DNA of 21,988 bases. Origin: a virus. The stretch covers positions 1 to 21,988 of IMG/VR virus record IMGVR_UViG_3300010883_028708, one strand, 5' to 3'. Below are positions 384-20,801 of this stretch, one piece after another (the first letter of the stretch is position 1; every line of letters starts with the position of its first letter). A model generated the notes under the pieces. It saw nothing but the letters and a program-made list of their open reading frames with translations. It made no database searches and was not told where the DNA came from. The translations under genes and the position numbers were made by a program.

Positions 384-1022
384 TTAGTATTGCTCGTTGC
401 CGGTGACGGTGGATGTGGCGGCGGTGTCAACAATTGCCGTGTCGGTGATATTGCCAACACAAACACAATTATCGCTTCCGGCGAGAATTTCGATAGCGTT
501 CCCACCCACCGCTTTGATATAATTATTATTGACTTGCATGTTATCCCCTTGAATACGCATCCCTATCTCATCGGCGTCTTCCACGGTATTTCCAATAATC
601 CTATTCCTATCTCCAACTAAGTGAAGGCCAAAGGAGTCGGAGTCTAAGATCCAACAGCCCTGCAAAATAGAATCGCTACACACCCAAGGAAGAGCCGCAT
701 CCCCGCCAGCGCCGCCGCCAGACGAGTTCGTGAAAGCAAGATTGCAAACAACGTTGTAACTTCCGTTAAAAGTCCCCGCTCCGGTGGTGTCCCCGTCAAT
801 CAGGGTGTCCCGCCCTTCGCCCATAAGAAGAAAGCTTCCGGCTGAAATAGTCCCCATAGCCGGATAAATTCCATTGCGGACGAAGATGGACTTGTGTCCG
901 GCGTCGATAGCGTCTTGCGGTAGGTAATAGCGACCCGTCTTCGGGTTGGTCTTGCCGTTTATATCGACTATCGCGCCAAAGGGCGTATGGTAGGCGACGT
1001 GGTGAATTATCTCTTGGTGCAT
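384..1022 (-). CDS. Right-handed beta-helix protein, probable tailspike (212 aa)
   Basis: The start overlaps the fibre stop (TAATG) with GGGGGGAG just upstream. After a segment like YYLPQDAIDAGHKSIFVRNG (32-51) come short repeated turns of the pectate-lyase/NosD type. Examples are SILQGCWILDSDSFGLHLVG (118-137), NRIIGNTVEDADEIGMRIQG (140-159) and QVNNNYIKAVGGNAIEILAG (163-182). Each rung carries the hydrophobic/Asn pattern of a beta-helix. It is short for a tailspike (usually over 400 residues), so it may be an accessory spike or a partner of the LamG protein. No clear catalytic residues of polysaccharide lyases seen. Low GC like its neighbour. Confidence 0.75.
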   Translation of the reverse strand: MHQEIIHHVAYHTPFGAIVDINGKTNPKTGRYYLPQDAIDAGHKSIFVRNGIYPAMGTISAGSFLLMGEGRDTLIDGDTTGAGTFNGSYNVVCNLAFTNSSGGGAGGDAALPWVCSDSILQGCWILDSDSFGLHLVGDRNRIIGNTVEDADEIGMRIQGDNMQVNNNYIKAVGGNAIEILAGSDNCVCVGNITDTAIVDTAATSTVTGNEQY

Positions 1023-3199
1023 TATCTCCCCCCGTCCGTGATAACTAGGTCCGCTTGCACGAACTCAACGTCCGACGAACCGCCGAGCAGAAGCGAGTAG
1101 CCGCCGCGCTGGCCGACGAATTGCTTAATAGCTACACAGTTAAGCGTTCCAGACGGCACGGCATCCGAGGCAATCGGGATACAGTGCCGGTCAAAGACAA
1201 TCACCTGCCCCCCGTCAATAGCGGCAACCCAATATCCACTGTCTGGATCTCCAGCGATTTCTTGCATATAAAGCTCTGGCAAGAAATCGTTATTTATCGC
1301 CACTTCTTGCGCTCTGAGGCCACGTTGGTAGTTGTATTGAATTTCTTCCCAGTCCAGCGGCAACTTTGAGACAACTACCTGATCCACCCGACCGGCAAAA
1401 GCTTCCGTTCCAACTCTGTTAGACCCTATCCAAATTTCATCCGGGTCGATACTTGCCGCCGCTTGGACGATTGTGATAGCTCCAACTTGCACCCCGTCAA
1501 TGTAGAGAGATAGCGTCGATCCGCTACGCTGAAAAACGCAGTTATGCCACCGCGCATCATACAAATCAACAGAGCCGGTATTGATTTCGTCGTTGGTGCT
1601 CATTCCATCGTCTGAAAGTCTGGCCCTGAAAGAGCCGTCAGTCAGAAATCTCAGGTCTATAACGTCTGAGCCGATGGAATCCACTAAATAGCAAACCAGT
1701 TCCAGCCCTGCCGGGTTACTCGCACTGGTGGACTTAAACCAAAGAGACACGCTCCAGTCCCCCGTTCCCATGTTAAAATCAGTATCACCAGTTCGGGACA
1801 GGGATTGATTAGATCCGTCAAAGGTCGGCGCATTACCCAACACCCCGCCCGAAGTAAAAAGGACAGTATTGTTGTTGGTTAGATTATTGCCCCTGCCGCT
1901 ATAGTCGGTCAGATTTTCTAAAGAATAACAAGCCACCGTCCCCGCCGTCCCAGATGAGTGAAAGCCTCCCTTGCAATAGGGGTGGTTCCCCTCTTCGTCA
2001 ATTTGCATCACACCCGACTTGGAAGGGTTGACTACATCAATGAAAAATATCATTGCGCCGTATGCGCCCCGCATTACATAGCACTCCCGGCCCTTTATAA
2101 GCTGGCCCATATATACAGCGGAAAAAAGACCTTCGCCGGTTCCGGCATGGCGAAAGAGCAAGTCATGGTTAGTTATAGTAGCTCCACCCATGAAATTAAA
2201 ATCTTCAGAGTTCCTGTCGTTGTTGCCTGTTCTTGTAAAGGTCCAGTCTGCCGTAATATTGGTGATATTGCGCCAACCCATTACATTGACCGTTCCGCCG
2301 CCGTTATAGTGAGTAAAGATCGCCAACCCATTAGAATTGACGTTCACTATGTTACATTCTGGGGTTCCTGAATTTGGGATGCCGTCCCACAGCGCCGCAT
2401 CAGCATCATTCTCCGCAGGGAAATAAGTTGTCCAGCCGTGCGTCCGCATGGTGGAAGACCAGTAATGTTTTGGCCTGCCAAATTCATCCACTAACGAAGG
2501 ATGCCGCGCCGCATTGATTGGCGGGTCACAGTCATTGTCCAGCGTATCTACGGTGGCCCCCGTAGGGCGAAGGATATTCCAACCAAGGCCATCGTTGCGC
2601 TCTGAGATATTCCCTTTGTATTTCATCAGACCATTGCCCGCGCTCAAGAAACGCCAGCCTTCATCGGCTACCAAATCAGCAATGTAGACGCCCCCGGCTG
2701 TGGCATCGCTACAAGAATAAATCTTGCCGTCTAAAAAATAAATATCTTGCAACACAACCAAACTGGCTGGTCCGAACAAATCCCCACCGGCTGAAACGGT
2801 TTCAAAGGCCATGTATTGCACGTTGGCTTCCAAGTCCCACCAGATGATTGAATCCTTGGCATGGTCAATCCACATAGCTCCATGTACTGGGGGCGGCCCT
2901 AATTCTGCCACCCAACTTGAGGCCTTGACCGCGCCCATGAACGCCTTGTAATCCCAGACCTGATTGGGGTCATCTAAGTCCACAAAGATGATTCGCCACG
3001 CCGACTCGGCGGTGAGTACGACGGAGGGCGCTTCCGCCACAAAGCCGGCCTTGTGCTTGCCGTCGCCCGTGGTCGGGTCCAGATCGTGGCCTACGTCGCC
3101 CTTCTGCTGCAAAAACTGGGTGTTGTCCCCGACCTTTTCGTGGTCCGACTTCTTGGTATAGCCGCCAATCGTGACGGTGGTATTGGTCTCGAAGTTCAT
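1022..3199 (-). CDS. Probable receptor-binding/tail fibre protein with LamG domain (725 aa)
   Basis: ATG at 3199, right after the upstream stop, chosen over a TTG 45 nt earlier that only extends into the previous gene. Residues about 60-420 are beta-rich with repeating Trp/Asp turns (ESAWRIIFVDLDDPNQVWDY; DGKIYSCSDATAGGVYIADL), perhaps a propeller-like region. Residues about 421-625 are a LamG/concanavalin-like jellyroll. Its signature is YSGRGNNLTN, APTFDGSNQSLS, WSVSLWFKSTS, ARWHNCVFQRSGSTLSLYID and IWIGSNRV. Such domains bind glycans on host surfaces. The C-terminus is a further beta unit. GC is visibly lower than in the upstream tail genes, a common mark of exchange at the host-recognition end. 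The assignment to receptor binding is inferred. Confidence 0.78.
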   Translation of the reverse strand: MNFETNTTVTIGGYTKKSDHEKVGDNTQFLQQKGDVGHDLDPTTGDGKHKAGFVAEAPSVVLTAESAWRIIFVDLDDPNQVWDYKAFMGAVKASSWVAELGPPPVHGAMWIDHAKDSIIWWDLEANVQYMAFETVSAGGDLFGPASLVVLQDIYFLDGKIYSCSDATAGGVYIADLVADEGWRFLSAGNGLMKYKGNISERNDGLGWNILRPTGATVDTLDNDCDPPINAARHPSLVDEFGRPKHYWSSTMRTHGWTTYFPAENDADAALWDGIPNSGTPECNIVNVNSNGLAIFTHYNGGGTVNVMGWRNITNITADWTFTRTGNNDRNSEDFNFMGGATITNHDLLFRHAGTGEGLFSAVYMGQLIKGRECYVMRGAYGAMIFFIDVVNPSKSGVMQIDEEGNHPYCKGGFHSSGTAGTVACYSLENLTDYSGRGNNLTNNNTVLFTSGGVLGNAPTFDGSNQSLSRTGDTDFNMGTGDWSVSLWFKSTSASNPAGLELVCYLVDSIGSDVIDLRFLTDGSFRARLSDDGMSTNDEINTGSVDLYDARWHNCVFQRSGSTLSLYIDGVQVGAITIVQAAASIDPDEIWIGSNRVGTEAFAGRVDQVVVSKLPLDWEEIQYNYQRGLRAQEVAINNDFLPELYMQEIAGDPDSGYWVAAIDGGQVIVFDRHCIPIASDAVPSGTLNCVAIKQFVGQRGGYSLLLGGSSDVEFVQADLVITDGGR

Positions 3200-3200
3200 A

Positions 3201-3653
3201 TCAATTCTCTGCTGCGAGTAGGGCGTGCAGGGCTTGAAGTTCAAGTAACCAGATGCCCACCTGCTCGTCGATATAGTGGATGTTGGCTTGGGCCTTATGG
3301 ATCTGGCCGCTCAGCTTCCTCTTTTGTGCCTCTGTCAACTTGTAATCGACCGGATGGCCGGCCCGCTTCTCTTCCCATTCCATCAACTCACCCTGATGGA
3401 TCTCCTTTTGCGCGAGTTGGTCCTGGATATTAAAGACACGGCCCGCCACGTCCCGGCGGAGTTGCAATAATCGCATGTCCCCCTCAAAGCCGGGGTGCCA
3501 CCGTCGGGGCCCCTCTACGATCACCTCGGCCGAATGGTAGACCTCGGGGATAGAGGGGGCGACCGACGCAAAGACCAACGGCCCATCAGAGGTATTTATA
3601 GCGTCGGCTGGCTTCCGAAGGTGAGCCGGAGGTATCGGCATATCCGTTGGCAT
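3201..3653 (-). CDS. Small helical tail-region protein (150 aa)
   Basis: An ORF whose first ATG is at 3653, inside the hub gene's end, with AAAGGA 10 nt upstream. Starts at the ATG of residue 5, or at a TTG after the hub stop, are also possible, so the start is uncertain. The first about 50 residues are Pro/Ser-rich (GPLVFASVAPSIPEVYHSAE). The rest is helical with coiled-coil character (RLLQLRRDVAGRVFNIQDQL, EAQKRKLSGQIHKAQANIHY). It ends TGA, 2 nt before the fibre start. Possibly a small structural or chaperone protein for the fibre, but no family recognised. Confidence 0.7.
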   Translation of the reverse strand: MPTDMPIPPAHLRKPADAINTSDGPLVFASVAPSIPEVYHSAEVIVEGPRRWHPGFEGDMRLLQLRRDVAGRVFNIQDQLAQKEIHQGELMEWEEKRAGHPVDYKLTEAQKRKLSGQIHKAQANIHYIDEQVGIWLLELQALHALLAAEN

Positions 3654-15861: not shown

Positions 15862-16788
15862 TTAGACCACCGCGTTCTGGACCATGTAGGCCAGATCGGG
15901 CGAGATGATTTTGTGGACGTAGCGGTCCTGCACCTTCTTCCAGGTTGCCTCCGGGTCGTTTTCCGGCCACTCGGTCACCTCTCGAGAACCGCCCCGCTGC
16001 AACGTGGCGGTGGCTGTCATGGCCCTCGGACCGGGGTTGTCGGCCAGATACAAGAGCACACAGTGCTTGCCCCAGATGTAACCGGCCGCATCCGCCTGCC
16101 CTTCGCGGGCCGTATTGTAGCGGGCCCGCCCGATAAACACCTTGGCCGGATCCACATCGATCAGCTCGGCAAACTGGGTCGAGGAAATGCCGCCGCCCTG
16201 GGTATACTGAAACTGGGCCAGCACATCGGGGTGGCGCCGGAGGCGGTTCCAGACCTGCTCGCCCATCACGCAGCCGTTGGCCGAGCGCCACATCGCCTCG
16301 TTGCCCTGGTCCAGATCTTTTAACGGCGTCGAGGCGTCGTTGTGCCACTGGCTGCTGCCCGACAGGGTGGTGTTCAGCGTCAGGTTGGCGGTGCTGAACA
16401 ACAGATCGGCCGCCCGTCGCTCGCGGGCCAACAACAACAGATCGGTCAAAAACTCCACAGCGTCCTCTTCCGGGTCCAGCACCTCGTCGGCGTTGTCGAC
16501 CTCTTCCTGTAAGACCAGCTCTTTGAGGCCGTAGCGGCCCAGGGTAAAGTCCTTTTTGACCAGATCGTGCCGGGCCTCGCTGGCCGGGCTGCGTTCCCCC
16601 AAGGGGCCGTCCGTTTCGATGCGGAGGTTGCCCTTGGCGTATTCGTAGTACTTGCCGCTGTCTTTGCCGGTGAATTCGGGGCCCCGCTGGCGGGGAAAGA
16701 CGCGATCGGCAATGTATTCTTCGTTGGTAAACCGTACGCTGAAATCGGTCAGCGTACGGTCGGTGCGTACATCGGCTACGGCTGGCAT
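15862..16788 (-). CDS. Major capsid protein (HK97 fold)
   Basis: 308 residues, recognised by a pattern common to one large family of phage coat proteins. It opens with DRTLTDFSVRFTNEEYIADR and VFPRQRG, followed by SGKYYEYAKGNLRIE. An acidic helix (NADEVLDPEEDAVEFLTDLLL, residues about 98-118) matches the HK97 spine helix region. The middle has SQWHNDASTPLKDLDQ, then VMGEQVWNRLRRHPDV and an A-domain strand (KVFIGRARYNT). It forms the icosahedral shell. No long N-terminal delta domain is present, in keeping with a separate scaffold. ATG preceded by AAGGGAG about 8 nt away. Ends TAA 40 nt before the next start. Confidence 0.92.
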   Translation of the reverse strand: MPAVADVRTDRTLTDFSVRFTNEEYIADRVFPRQRGPEFTGKDSGKYYEYAKGNLRIETDGPLGERSPASEARHDLVKKDFTLGRYGLKELVLQEEVDNADEVLDPEEDAVEFLTDLLLLARERRAADLLFSTANLTLNTTLSGSSQWHNDASTPLKDLDQGNEAMWRSANGCVMGEQVWNRLRRHPDVLAQFQYTQGGGISSTQFAELIDVDPAKVFIGRARYNTAREGQADAAGYIWGKHCVLLYLADNPGPRAMTATATLQRGGSREVTEWPENDPEATWKKVQDRYVHKIISPDLAYMVQNAVV

Positions 16789-17282: not shown

Positions 17283-17945
17283 TTACGCCGCGCCGCGGTA
17301 GCGCCAATCCTCGTACGCCGACCCAAACGTTTTACGGGCTTCGCGGTGCGACTGCGAGTGGGCTTCTCTGGCCGACTTGCCCTGACTTTCCAGCTCCTCG
17401 ATGCGTTGGTCGAGAAACTGCTGCACCTGATCGGTCGAAGTCGTCTCGGGGTCGGTATCGTCGCCCAGTTCGTCGGTCTGGACAATGGCGGCGCGGGCGT
17501 TGAGCTGCCGCTCGAAGCGTTCGAAGTTTTCATTCGCCTGCTCGCGCAGGTCGGCCTCTTCGGCGGCGGTGAATTTGTGACGGTTGACTTTGAGCACCTG
17601 ATCGACGCGCATCTGGTGCAACTGCTGAGCCGCCTCGGCCCCCTTCTGGGCGTTGGCGGTGAGCTGGACGTGCTCGTCCCGCGACAGTTGGACCGTGTCG
17701 GGGTCGGGCGTCTGGGTCGCAGTCAACTCGTCATACTCGGACTGCGGCACCAGCACCACCCCCTCGATCTCAACTTCGGCGGCGTGCGCGGCGATATACT
17801 GCTGCGCGTGGGCCTGGACCGTCTCGGGGCTGTTGAGCCGCTGATTCTCCTCATCCAGCTTAGAAAAAGCCTGGGTGCGGTGTTCGTCGGTGACCTCTAC
17901 GTCCTGCGATAGGCCGAGGATTTCGCGGATACGTGCATCGTTCAT
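17283..17945 (-). CDS. Nested head scaffold protein (internal in-frame start, Mu Z/lambda Nu3-like)
   Basis: An internal ATG at codon 252 of the protease gene is preceded by AAGGAG (17959-17954) at 8-nt spacing, as strong as any ribosome site in the window. Initiation here gives 220 residues starting MNDARIREILGL, which contain the whole Glu/Gln/Ala-rich helical scaffold domain and no protease. This is the classic nested layout of Mu I/Z and lambda C/Nu3, in which the scaffold is made in large excess of protease. The segment from about residue 105 of this product onward (HQMRVDQVLKVNRHKFTAAE) and the C-terminus (FGSAYEDWRYRG) are likely capsid-binding ends. The strength of the internal SD is seen; the excess is inferred. 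Confidence 0.82.
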   Translation of the reverse strand: MNDARIREILGLSQDVEVTDEHRTQAFSKLDEENQRLNSPETVQAHAQQYIAAHAAEVEIEGVVLVPQSEYDELTATQTPDPDTVQLSRDEHVQLTANAQKGAEAAQQLHQMRVDQVLKVNRHKFTAAEEADLREQANENFERFERQLNARAAIVQTDELGDDTDPETTSTDQVQQFLDQRIEELESQGKSAREAHSQSHREARKTFGSAYEDWRYRGAA

Positions 17946-18698
17946 GGTGTGCTCTCCTTGTGAGGGCGTGGGTTGGGATGGCGGGTCGTGTTCAGCGTCC
18001 GCTTTCGGTATGCTGAAAGTTTTATGAGGCTTCGTCGGCTCTGCCGCCGCGGCCACTTCCGGCTTTTCATCGGGGATCTTCACGTAGATCCCTTCCCCCC
18101 TCACCCAGCCGGCCGACAGAGCCGCATAGGCATTTTCGTAGAGGGAGCCGTGGTTGTAGTCGACCATCATTTCGGTCGGCGGATGGTCCGAGTTGGGGTT
18201 AGCCGAAGACAGGACATGCTCAAAGTTGTTCACCATCTCGTTGAGATGCTCGACGGTGATATCGATGCGGCCCCACCAGGGGTGATACCAGGTGCCCGTC
18301 ATAAAGACTTGGATGTGGGAAACGCGGTCTTCTTCGGTCACTTCCAGGGGAGCCATGCCGCACAGAAACGGTCGATTCGTCGCCCCGATAGCCAACAGCG
18401 CGGCACCGATGCGGTTGTCGGTTTTCTCGCTATTGTAGTTCAGGCTGAACTCCGGCGAGATGTAGCGGTATTCCTCGTTGGCAATAAACTCGTGCGCCCG
18501 CTTCGTCCAGTGCACCTCCGCCCACATTTCGGCATAGACGCCGCCGGGTACATCGTTCAGGCGAGTAAACTGACCGAAGGGCAAGCCGATAGCCGGCGAA
18601 TAGAAATGAGGGTGCTCCTTCTTGATCGCCTCGTAGAATTCGACTAACTCAGAGGCGCCCACTTGGGCTAGTTGCTCTCTAAAGGTTATCAGGTGCAT
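17283..18698 (-). CDS. Prohead protease (Mu gpI-like, permuted order) fused to scaffold
   Basis: 471 residues. The N-terminal 250 contain all blocks of the Mu gpI-like prohead protease, but in swapped order. Residues about 54-120 carry VHWTKRAHEFI, NEEYRYISPEF (Ser81) and GATNRPFLCGMAPLEV, normally the second half. Residues about 128-205 carry HIQVFMTGTWYHP, MMVDYNHGS (His183) and LSAGWVRGEG, normally the first half. A Pro/Ala/Lys-rich linker (about 210-250) leads into the scaffold domain from Met252, which is Glu/Gln-rich and helical. In this family the protease matures the prohead and removes the scaffold. Start ATG has AAGGGGA 7 nt upstream, overlapping the end of the portal-MuF gene. Protease-scaffold fusion is normal for the family; the block order is not. 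Confidence 0.88.
   Translation of the reverse strand: MHLITFREQLAQVGASELVEFYEAIKKEHPHFYSPAIGLPFGQFTRLNDVPGGVYAEMWAEVHWTKRAHEFIANEEYRYISPEFSLNYNSEKTDNRIGAALLAIGATNRPFLCGMAPLEVTEEDRVSHIQVFMTGTWYHPWWGRIDITVEHLNEMVNNFEHVLSSANPNSDHPPTEMMVDYNHGSLYENAYAALSAGWVRGEGIYVKIPDEKPEVAAAAEPTKPHKTFSIPKADAEHDPPSQPTPSQGEHTMNDARIREILGLSQDVEVTDEHRTQAFSKLDEENQRLNSPETVQAHAQQYIAAHAAEVEIEGVVLVPQSEYDELTATQTPDPDTVQLSRDEHVQLTANAQKGAEAAQQLHQMRVDQVLKVNRHKFTAAEEADLREQANENFERFERQLNARAAIVQTDELGDDTDPETTSTDQVQQFLDQRIEELESQGKSAREAHSQSHREARKTFGSAYEDWRYRGAA
17954..17959 (-). promoter_or_regulatory. Internal Shine-Dalgarno for nested scaffold
   Basis: AAGGAG inside the protease coding frame, 8 nt before an in-frame ATG. It lies at the junction of the low-complexity linker and the scaffold domain, where an internal start is functionally sensible. 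Confidence 0.75.
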
Positions 18699-18701
18699 GG
18701 A

Positions 18702-20063
18702 TTATTCCCCTTGGCTGAATTCGTATACGTAGAGACAGCGACAATTGTTAGAGCCGGAATTAGCCGATAGACATCTCCGGTTGGGCGGCAAGCTGGCGTA
18801 GTAGTCCGGGCTGCCCACCTCGAACTCTTCGCCGTCTAAGGGCTCGCACTCATCGCAGACATCACCGTCTAAGATGGCCGAGTAGATAGCCCGTTCGATA
18901 ACCGCCTTTTGGGCTTCCGCCTCTTTATTGCGGCCCATGGCAAACGCCGTGGCCACCAACAGCACCCCCTCCCTGCGCTGGGCTGGCTCGAACATCGCCT
19001 TGACTTCCTCGGCGATCTCCTCTAGCTCCGCCTCGTCGAAGTCGGCCCGCTGCGTACGCCATAGGTCTAAGGCCCGCTCGGTGACCAGCGCCTTTACGCG
19101 GCCGTAGAGTTGCTCCAGTGATTTCCTGGCGCGCGTCCAGAACAGGTCGGTGATCTCTTCGTTGACGATGTCCTCTTCGCGGAAGGTCTGCGGCGAATCG
19201 TGCCCATCTGACACAGAGGCCGCCTTTTTCTTTTGCTTTTTTGCCTCGTCTTTGACTGTGCGCCGCCCAAAGACAAACATCTCGCGCATGACGCCCACCA
19301 GCTCTTTGGCATGCTGGTGCCGCTGCGCCTTGGACAGTTGCACGTCGTTAACATCCGAGGCGTCTCCATCGCTCAGCGCTTCGGCCACCTGCTCGACCAG
19401 CGCATCCACCCACTTTCCTTTAGCTACCCCAGCGATCTCCACAACCTCTTCCGTGCCGTCGTCCTGCTTGCCGGCGATCTCTCTCAACGACATGGACTTT
19501 TCGAGGCCGGTCAGGTCCCGCCAGAAATCGACCGAGCCGGCCATCTGTGGGTGGTCGTGCCGATGGGGGCGGTGCACCTGGATCGTCTCTGCGGGCGGGC
19601 GGCTGGCTTTATCAGAGGTTTTGCCAACCTTTTGTGGCACGTCGGCCAAGTCCCGCAGGTGGACTTCCAGATCGTCGTCCGGCGTAACAAAGCCGCCCCG
19701 CTCCAACCGTTCCAGCGCGCGGGAGACCAATTCCAGGTTTTGGATCTCGAGGTCGGACCACTCGACGGTGGCCACTACGTCGTCGGGTCGAGGGTGGTTG
19801 AGGAGGAGAAACGGCTTGATCAGTTGTTCGTTGATAGCGGCGCGGATCCAATCGGCAATGGCCTCCAGCGACAACAGGAACATATCGAACATCGACTCGC
19901 CCAGGGCGCGGGAGCCGGTCTGTGTGCGCCCCAAATTCAGCGCCATGGCCAACACACACATGGCGATCATCTCGTCGCAGTAGTGGATGGGGCCCAACGG
20001 ATCGTAGCGGCCGGAGTCCCCGTGTCCTTCGATCTTAAACCCCCACCCGTGCGGGCTGAACAT
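18702..20063 (-). CDS. Portal C-terminal part fused to MuF-type minor head domain
   Basis: The coding frame continues from the portal N-part across the TAG; the first ATG after it (20063) has no good SD. The first roughly 120 residues finish the DUF935 portal (FSPHGWGFKIEG, then LGRTQTGSRALGESMFD, and the helical LELVSRALERLERGGFV). A low-complexity Lys/Gln-rich linker follows. The last 70 or so residues carry a MuF/SPP1 gp7 signature, CDECEPLDG then LPPNRRC and NCRCLYVY, where the usual PP.H..CRC His is not at its normal place. MuF proteins sit inside the head next to the portal and are needed for morphogenesis or for ejected cargo. The fused product would be about 699 residues. Start choice uncertain; functional only if the TAG is an error or is read through. 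Confidence 0.85.
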   Translation of the reverse strand: MFSPHGWGFKIEGHGDSGRYDPLGPIHYCDEMIAMCVLAMALNLGRTQTGSRALGESMFDMFLLSLEAIADWIRAAINEQLIKPFLLLNHPRPDDVVATVEWSDLEIQNLELVSRALERLERGGFVTPDDDLEVHLRDLADVPQKVGKTSDKASRPPAETIQVHRPHRHDHPQMAGSVDFWRDLTGLEKSMSLREIAGKQDDGTEEVVEIAGVAKGKWVDALVEQVAEALSDGDASDVNDVQLSKAQRHQHAKELVGVMREMFVFGRRTVKDEAKKQKKKAASVSDGHDSPQTFREEDIVNEEITDLFWTRARKSLEQLYGRVKALVTERALDLWRTQRADFDEAELEEIAEEVKAMFEPAQRREGVLLVATAFAMGRNKEAEAQKAVIERAIYSAILDGDVCDECEPLDGEEFEVGSPDYYASLPPNRRCLSANSGSNNCRCLYVYEFSQGE

Positions 20064-20069
20064 CCGGGC

Positions 20070-20072
20070 CTA
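20070..20072 (-). other. In-frame amber codon splitting the portal gene
   Basis: Reading ...GTG GGG GCA TAG GCC CGG ATG TTC..., the TAG is in the same frame as the coding sequence on both sides, so no insertion or deletion is involved. A single base change from GAG, AAG or CAG would explain it. No obvious readthrough context such as CAR-YYA follows. Confidence 0.9.
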
Positions 20073-20801
20073 TGCCCCCACCGTCATGGCCTTCATCATC
20101 TCCATGGCGGCGTCTTTGTCTTTGGGGTCGTAACTGCCCTCCGGCGCCGTGATGTGGGGTACCCCCACCGCGTGGCGCTGCAGGCCGATAGCCATCAGCT
20201 TCTCGAAGGTTTCCTTCATCCACCAGTACTTATAGGCCGCCCGATAGCCCGACTCGCCGACAAAGTTGTTGCCGATCTGGCCGTACGCGATATGAAAGAG
20301 TTTGTCGGCCGGGATCTCGATCTTTTTATAGGTGCCGTCCTTCCAGGCTCGCTGCACGATGCCGCCCAGATTGCCGTCCTTATCCGGCACCCAATCATGG
20401 ATCGTGGCTTGGCCGCGGTGGCCCAGCTTTTTATACCACAGCTTGCCGTTGTCTTCTTCCCAGACTTTTTCCATCACCTCGTGGCCGTAGTCAAAAGCCA
20501 ACAAAATGTGGTCCAGTAGGTTGCCTTTAAAGTTGAGGCGATGAAACAGGGCTTCGGTCAGATCTTCTTTAGCCTGGTCGTCGTCGGATTGGATGGTCCA
20601 CTTGGCCGCCTTGATGGGCAGCTTGACCACTTGGTTCGAGGCGTGCACCATGCCGTCGCGGCGCATCTTGGAGATGGTGTCGATGCCCTTGCGACCTTGT
20701 AGCTTGGGGACGTACTCGTCCGTCTTCAGAAAATTGCGGCCGAAGACGGTGCCAGTAGCCCCTAGCTCGGTGGTGCGTTGTTGTTTGGACGATTCGGTCA
20801 T
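20070..20801 (-). CDS. Portal protein, N-terminal part (Mu gp29-like/DUF935), ended by TAG
   Basis: The 243 residues begin a portal of the Mu gp29 (DUF935) family. MRRDGMVHASNQVV (about 46-59) and AFDYGHEVMEKVWE (about 102-115) are typical of the early portal wing and clip. Portals form the dodecameric ring at the capsid vertex through which DNA enters and leaves. The frame stops at an amber codon (20070-20072) after MKAMTVGA. The same frame resumes at once as ARMFSPHGWGF and continues for more than 450 codons with portal and MuF features, so this is half of one gene, not a full one. The start ATG has no SD and follows the terminator by about 10 nt. Either the stop is a sequence error or point mutation (GAG to TAG is the simplest), or it is read through. 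Confidence 0.88.
   Translation of the reverse strand: MTESSKQQRTTELGATGTVFGRNFLKTDEYVPKLQGRKGIDTISKMRRDGMVHASNQVVKLPIKAAKWTIQSDDDQAKEDLTEALFHRLNFKGNLLDHILLAFDYGHEVMEKVWEEDNGKLWYKKLGHRGQATIHDWVPDKDGNLGGIVQRAWKDGTYKKIEIPADKLFHIAYGQIGNNFVGESGYRAAYKYWWMKETFEKLMAIGLQRHAVGVPHITAPEGSYDPKDKDAAMEMMKAMTVGA

Follow-up and report, generated by a model that had tools for sequence, protein, structure and literature searches.

A head-maturation protease circularly permuted in sequence in a group of tailed phages

The protease-scaffold gene and its surroundings

The sequence studied here, referred to as the window, comprises positions 1-21,988 of the viral record IMGVR_UViG_3300010883_028708. A minus-strand open reading frame (ORF) in the capsid region of the window, with AAGGGG preceding its ATG, is a real gene, predicted to encode a protease fused to a scaffold (Table 1). 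The gene sits between a fused portal/Mu-F gene and the gene of the major capsid protein, an arrangement shared by two related contigs, L001 and L004. The capsid protein is conserved at 27% between the window and L004, far below the portal/Mu-F protein (44%) and the protease (42%). An in-frame TAG splits the portal/Mu-F gene of the window at a position where L001 is open (699 aa); this TAG may be a strain variant, a sequencing error or a suppressed stop. The 740-aa product of the minus strand at 1022-3244 has a laminin-G/concanavalin-like domain (E 4e-18) and may bind a receptor or a glycan.

Table 1. Coordinates of the protease-scaffold gene, its parts and neighboring genes in the window, and of one related protease on another contig.
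Feature	Position	Strand	Remark
Protease-scaffold gene, tailed phage	17283..18698	minus	471 aa ORF
N-terminal extension, residues 1-55	18534..18698	minus	without match to the canonical profile
Canonical second half (β6-β9), residues 56-123, now first	18330..18533	minus	profile 75-142; 50% identity to L019 97-162
Canonical first half (β1-β5), residues 124-208, now second	18075..18329	minus	profile 4-66
New junction, old C-terminus to old N-terminus, residues 113-127	18318..18362	minus	profile end and start meet at 123
Ser81 codon, proposed catalytic serine	18456..18458	minus	residue invariant in family
His183 codon, proposed catalytic histidine	18150..18152	minus	residue invariant in family
Internal Shine-Dalgarno AAGGAG ahead of predicted scaffold start	17954..17959	minus	sequence
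Scaffold part, predicted internal start M252, 220 aa	17283..17945	minus	compare Mu Z, nested in I
Fused portal/Mu-F gene, next upstream of protease	18702..20801	minus	TAG interrupts at 20070-20072
Major capsid protein, downstream context	15862..16788	minus	weak Phage_cap_E match
L134 protease, second kind of permutation	contig 3300014613_000316	minus	junction-pattern scan

Inverted order of the two catalytic halves

Assignment of the protein to a family relies on its matches to PF10123 (Mu-like prophage I protein, Mu-like_Pro) and to phrog_328 (head maturation protease; E 2.4e-23). The PF10123 match reaches 69.9 bits (E 3.6e-19), above the curated cut-off of 25.2 bits, and is broken into three stretches, the best of which aligns residues 58-124 to profile positions 78-139. 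The family order is DxxH, AGW, WT, YxYxSP and TNxP, and the window protein departs from this collinearity in that its halves are inverted. Motifs of the second half come first (WTKRAHEFI at residues 64-72, YRYISPEF at 77-84, ATNRPFL at 106-112), followed by those of the first half (HIQVFMTG at 128-135, DYNH at 180-183, AGWVRGEG at 196-203). A first-pass annotation made from the sequence alone had described this order, and every motif that it named is found in the ORF.

The same annotation had suggested searching with the protein both as it stands and with its halves exchanged. The N-terminal half alone matches PF10123 positions 78-136 at 50.1 bits, the C-terminal half alone matches positions 39-68 at 14.2 bits, and the exchange of the two yields a single collinear stretch over positions 40-136 at 73.2 bits. 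Among GenBank phage records, five are matched by the protein as it is, with coverage of at most 16%, and 36 by the swapped protein, 17 of them at coverage of at least 80% (best E 5e-15). Ordinary profile and BLAST searches see such permuted genes as fragments, and hence the genes may be missed or misannotated.

A canonical profile, built from 42 canonical proteins only, aligns its positions 75-142 to residues 56-123 and then its positions 4-66 to residues 123-200. This inverted alignment was the outcome of a comparison named beforehand as a possible refutation of the permuted order. Chance is excluded, since the canonical profile matches both of the inverted halves strongly (E 3e-20 and 2e-12). 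The end and the start of the profile meet at a single residue, 123, so that the old termini are joined with zero gap, and the profile positions lost, the outermost ones aside, are 67-74 alone. The hallmarks of a circular permutant are homologous halves in swapped order, near-complete coverage, joined old termini and new termini in a loop, and each of these is found here. As judged from sequence, the window protein relates to PF10123 as a circular permutant and not as an ordinary member, with its catalytic domain cut at the β5-β6 hairpin and its old termini joined.

It is very probable that the gene encodes a head-maturation serine protease with a fused scaffold, of the Mu gpI and herpesvirus-assemblin type, in which the catalytic domain has undergone a genuine circular permutation. 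With Mu gpI and its nested scaffold Z, as with PF10123 and phrog_328 generally, it shares the sequence family and the invariant residues; with Mu gpI it also shares the gene position between portal/F and capsid and a fused scaffold with an internal start. The two differ in that the catalytic halves of the window protein are swapped and its scaffold follows β5 rather than β9.

Distribution and polarity of the permuted order

Metagenomic contigs can be chimeric, and the inversion could in principle stem from an assembly or recombination artefact at 18300-18400 that misjoined two pieces of a gene that is canonical in the real phage. The chance of this is negligible. Contig L001 comes from another dataset; it shares 99.8% identity with the window across 6,936 bp and carries the gene for the same protein. 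The same permuted order is present in divergent proteins on L002-L004 (42% identical), L013-L015, L018 and L140 (36% identical), such that four divergent lineages and ten contigs, nine of them besides the window, have it in common. The gene is moreover a single intact frame under purifying selection: between L013 and L018, dN/dS is 0.074 in the permuted domain and 0.23 in the linker and scaffold, which indicates that the permuted domain is selected as a protein. Because the near-identical L001 and the divergent homologues keep the order, mis-assembly is excluded, and the survey of relatives proposed in the first-pass annotation thus settles in favor of the inversion.

Normal order is present in the proteins of Mu, Lawsonia, Helicobacter and Klebsiella, and a scan of all collected loci with three part-profiles identified 47 distinct normal-order proteins. 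Trees built from the fused portal/Mu-F protein place all permuted rows in one clade (100/99), which joins the canonical L019 and L051 in a well-supported clade with canonical phages around it. These two sisters, the closest by the portal tree, have the scaffold motif IRE(I/V)LGLS in common with the window and differ from it in their normal order. Residues 57-122 of the window protein match L019 97-162 at 50% identity, and residues 115-434 match L019 13-350; relative to L019, where β6-β9 separate the first half from the scaffold, these strands have in effect been moved to the front. Since the sisters and the surrounding phages have normal order, the permuted state is derived. Most simply, the permuted order would have arisen once in the group of the window, and the trees and substitution rates show that the phages of one clade have inherited it under purifying selection, with normal-order phages around them.

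Several canonical relatives display unusual architectures of their own. Microcystis phage vB_MaeS-yong1 was considered as a permuted GenBank member and rejected, as its order is canonical; its 848-aa ORF (L048:5839-8385) is an apparent fusion of protease, scaffold and major capsid protein. An HNH-endonuclease-like segment (KEIHHKNGNNVDNSPGNMEPLTKEEHAKKHG) lies in frame upstream of the canonical protease at L020:8992-10467, and also at L021:5416-6891. In the protease ORFs of L032-L036, an additional conserved domain (IQTIIVKKTPGM...FRQKDP...GVILIY) forms the N-terminal part, ahead of the canonical protease. A search of genome contigs with two queries found no relatives.

Fold of the canonical sister and position of the cut

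Capsid maturation proteases are a hallmark common to tailed phages and herpesviruses. A sequence search for a solved structure matching the protease family returned none, and the fold is described here from a predicted model of the canonical sister L019 (pLDDT 85, core mostly above 90). The closest solved structures are the VZV protease (Z 11.4) and T4 gp21 (Z 8.8); unrelated MCE-type rows in the same comparison score Z of about 5. The herpesvirus assemblins (VZV, HSV and HCMV proteases) and T4 gp21 resemble the canonical sister in predicted fold and would share with it serine-histidine catalysis and a role in capsid maturation. They align in canonical order, and no permuted member is present among the structure matches.

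In the L019 model, β5 spans residues 82-92 and β6 spans 97-104, and the profile stretch missing from the window protein includes the turn between them (L019 93-96). The permuted enzyme is cut at the tip of a hairpin, given that the missing stretch spans this turn. Insertions at the same hairpin in the canonical L038, L039 and L042 imply that the site tolerates change.

Catalysis and the fused scaffold

Tailed-phage prohead proteases and the herpesvirus protease are known to use a conserved serine and histidine in catalysis (PMC7411985). In the 42 canonical proteins, five residues are invariant, which in L019 numbering are H70, W85, S121, N148 and P150. The equivalents in the window protein, H183, W198, S81, N108 and P110, are all present, and all five are kept in every permuted lineage. 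The candidate catalytic pair picked out in the first-pass annotation, Ser81 and His183, is therefore retained at the family positions, with the serine now before the histidine and the chain order reversed.

The annotation had also stated that a fused scaffold follows the protease in the normal manner. This part carries its own Shine-Dalgarno sequence and start (AAGGAG, then the ATG of M252), is collinear with L019 and contains the common motif IREILGLS. Mu Z is annotated as nested in Mu I, and by analogy M252 is the predicted internal start of the scaffold.

In the working model, the permuted chain would fold to the usual barrel, in which Ser81 and His183 would meet as in the canonical enzymes. 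The protease would enter the prohead through its scaffold tail and cleave itself, the scaffold and probably the capsid proteins. As a consequence of the permutation, the scaffold would leave the enzyme after β5 rather than β9, and we infer that this shifted exit alters self-cleavage.

A different reading accepts the permutation and denies the activity: the protein would have a scaffold or structural role, with maturation left to another enzyme or to none. AlphaFold2 gives the permuted domain a pLDDT of 36, from an alignment of five sequences of which three are nearly alike, and the protein bears a 55-residue N-terminal extension; both points are in keeping with an inactive protein. Such a loss of activity is nevertheless improbable in view of the five invariant residues, serine and histidine included, kept in all permuted lineages, and of the lower dN/dS in the protease domain than in the scaffold.

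Origin of the permutation

In the textbook account of a circular permutation, a tandem duplication is followed by loss of the two outer halves. Here, the catalytic part would have been duplicated in tandem and in frame, after which the front half of the first copy and the rear half of the second would have been lost. This route, put forward in the first-pass annotation, is plausible and fits the map; no trace of a remnant or intermediate was found. Comparison of the window gene with its relatives revealed no remnant of a lost half, and a search for direct repeats gave one 12-nt pair, no better than chance. A strand duplicated at both ends was considered as a trace of duplication and dropped after comparison with L019, which shows that the strand in the C-terminal half is the normal β5.

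A second, differently cut permutation

A second permutation, cut at a different point, adds to what the first-pass annotation had claimed. The domain at L031:5821-6960 opens at helix α1 and continues with DxxH, AAGW, WT, YISS and TNRPF; after TNRPF it runs on into KIEILREGDFYHQVYGNFTI, which corresponds to canonical β1-β3 moved behind β9. A scan of the viral contigs with a DNA pattern of the new junction found the known cases again and added L140, of the first kind, and L134, of the second kind, whose protease is 42% identical. Most of the other new pattern matches (L127, L129-L133, L135, L137, L143 and L144) failed the profiles and are due to chance.

L031 and L134 belong to the same family as the window protein and join the same old termini, C- to N-terminus, but differ from it in the cut, with β1-β3 behind β9. 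They form their own clade (100/100) apart from the first permuted clade, and two independent permutation events are hence the simplest reading. The zero-gap join in the window protein, with the same join in the second permutation, suggests that the unpermuted fold would bring the old termini close together.

Such adjacency would bear on a domain-swapped arrangement, in which β6-β9 would pair with β1-β5 of a neighboring subunit and an active site would exist only between subunits of the prohead core. The short connection between the halves, with the profile end and start meeting at residue 123, and the crowding of scaffold-bound proteases would suit such a swap. It is unlikely, though somewhat less so than the loss of activity considered above, as the second permutation uses the same short join, which is what a single domain with neighboring old termini would lead one to expect.

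The preferred reading remains a permuted barrel within a single chain. A literature search for a permuted phage protease, made largely over papers open without subscription, found no earlier description, in agreement with the first-pass annotation, and its matches were mostly to permuted genomes. On balance, we favor the view that tailed phages have circularly permuted the capsid-protease fold on at least two independent occasions, with different cut points and the same join of termini. In the version present in the window, the chain order of the catalytic residues is reversed and the scaffold would exit at a different edge of the barrel; the tethering of the enzyme to its own scaffold, and its cutting of that scaffold in head maturation, would change accordingly. 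Two separate permutations, each near normal-order relatives, constitute a natural experiment. They reveal which chain connections the fold can spare and which of its termini need to lie side by side. They also allow a test of whether self-cleavage is controlled by where the scaffold is tethered.

The L134 protease ORF has one further feature, a RCIANGGTDKTCAPQAIRVALAKVKEK segment in the same frame before the permuted protease, which is possibly a small extra domain or the end of a separate gene.
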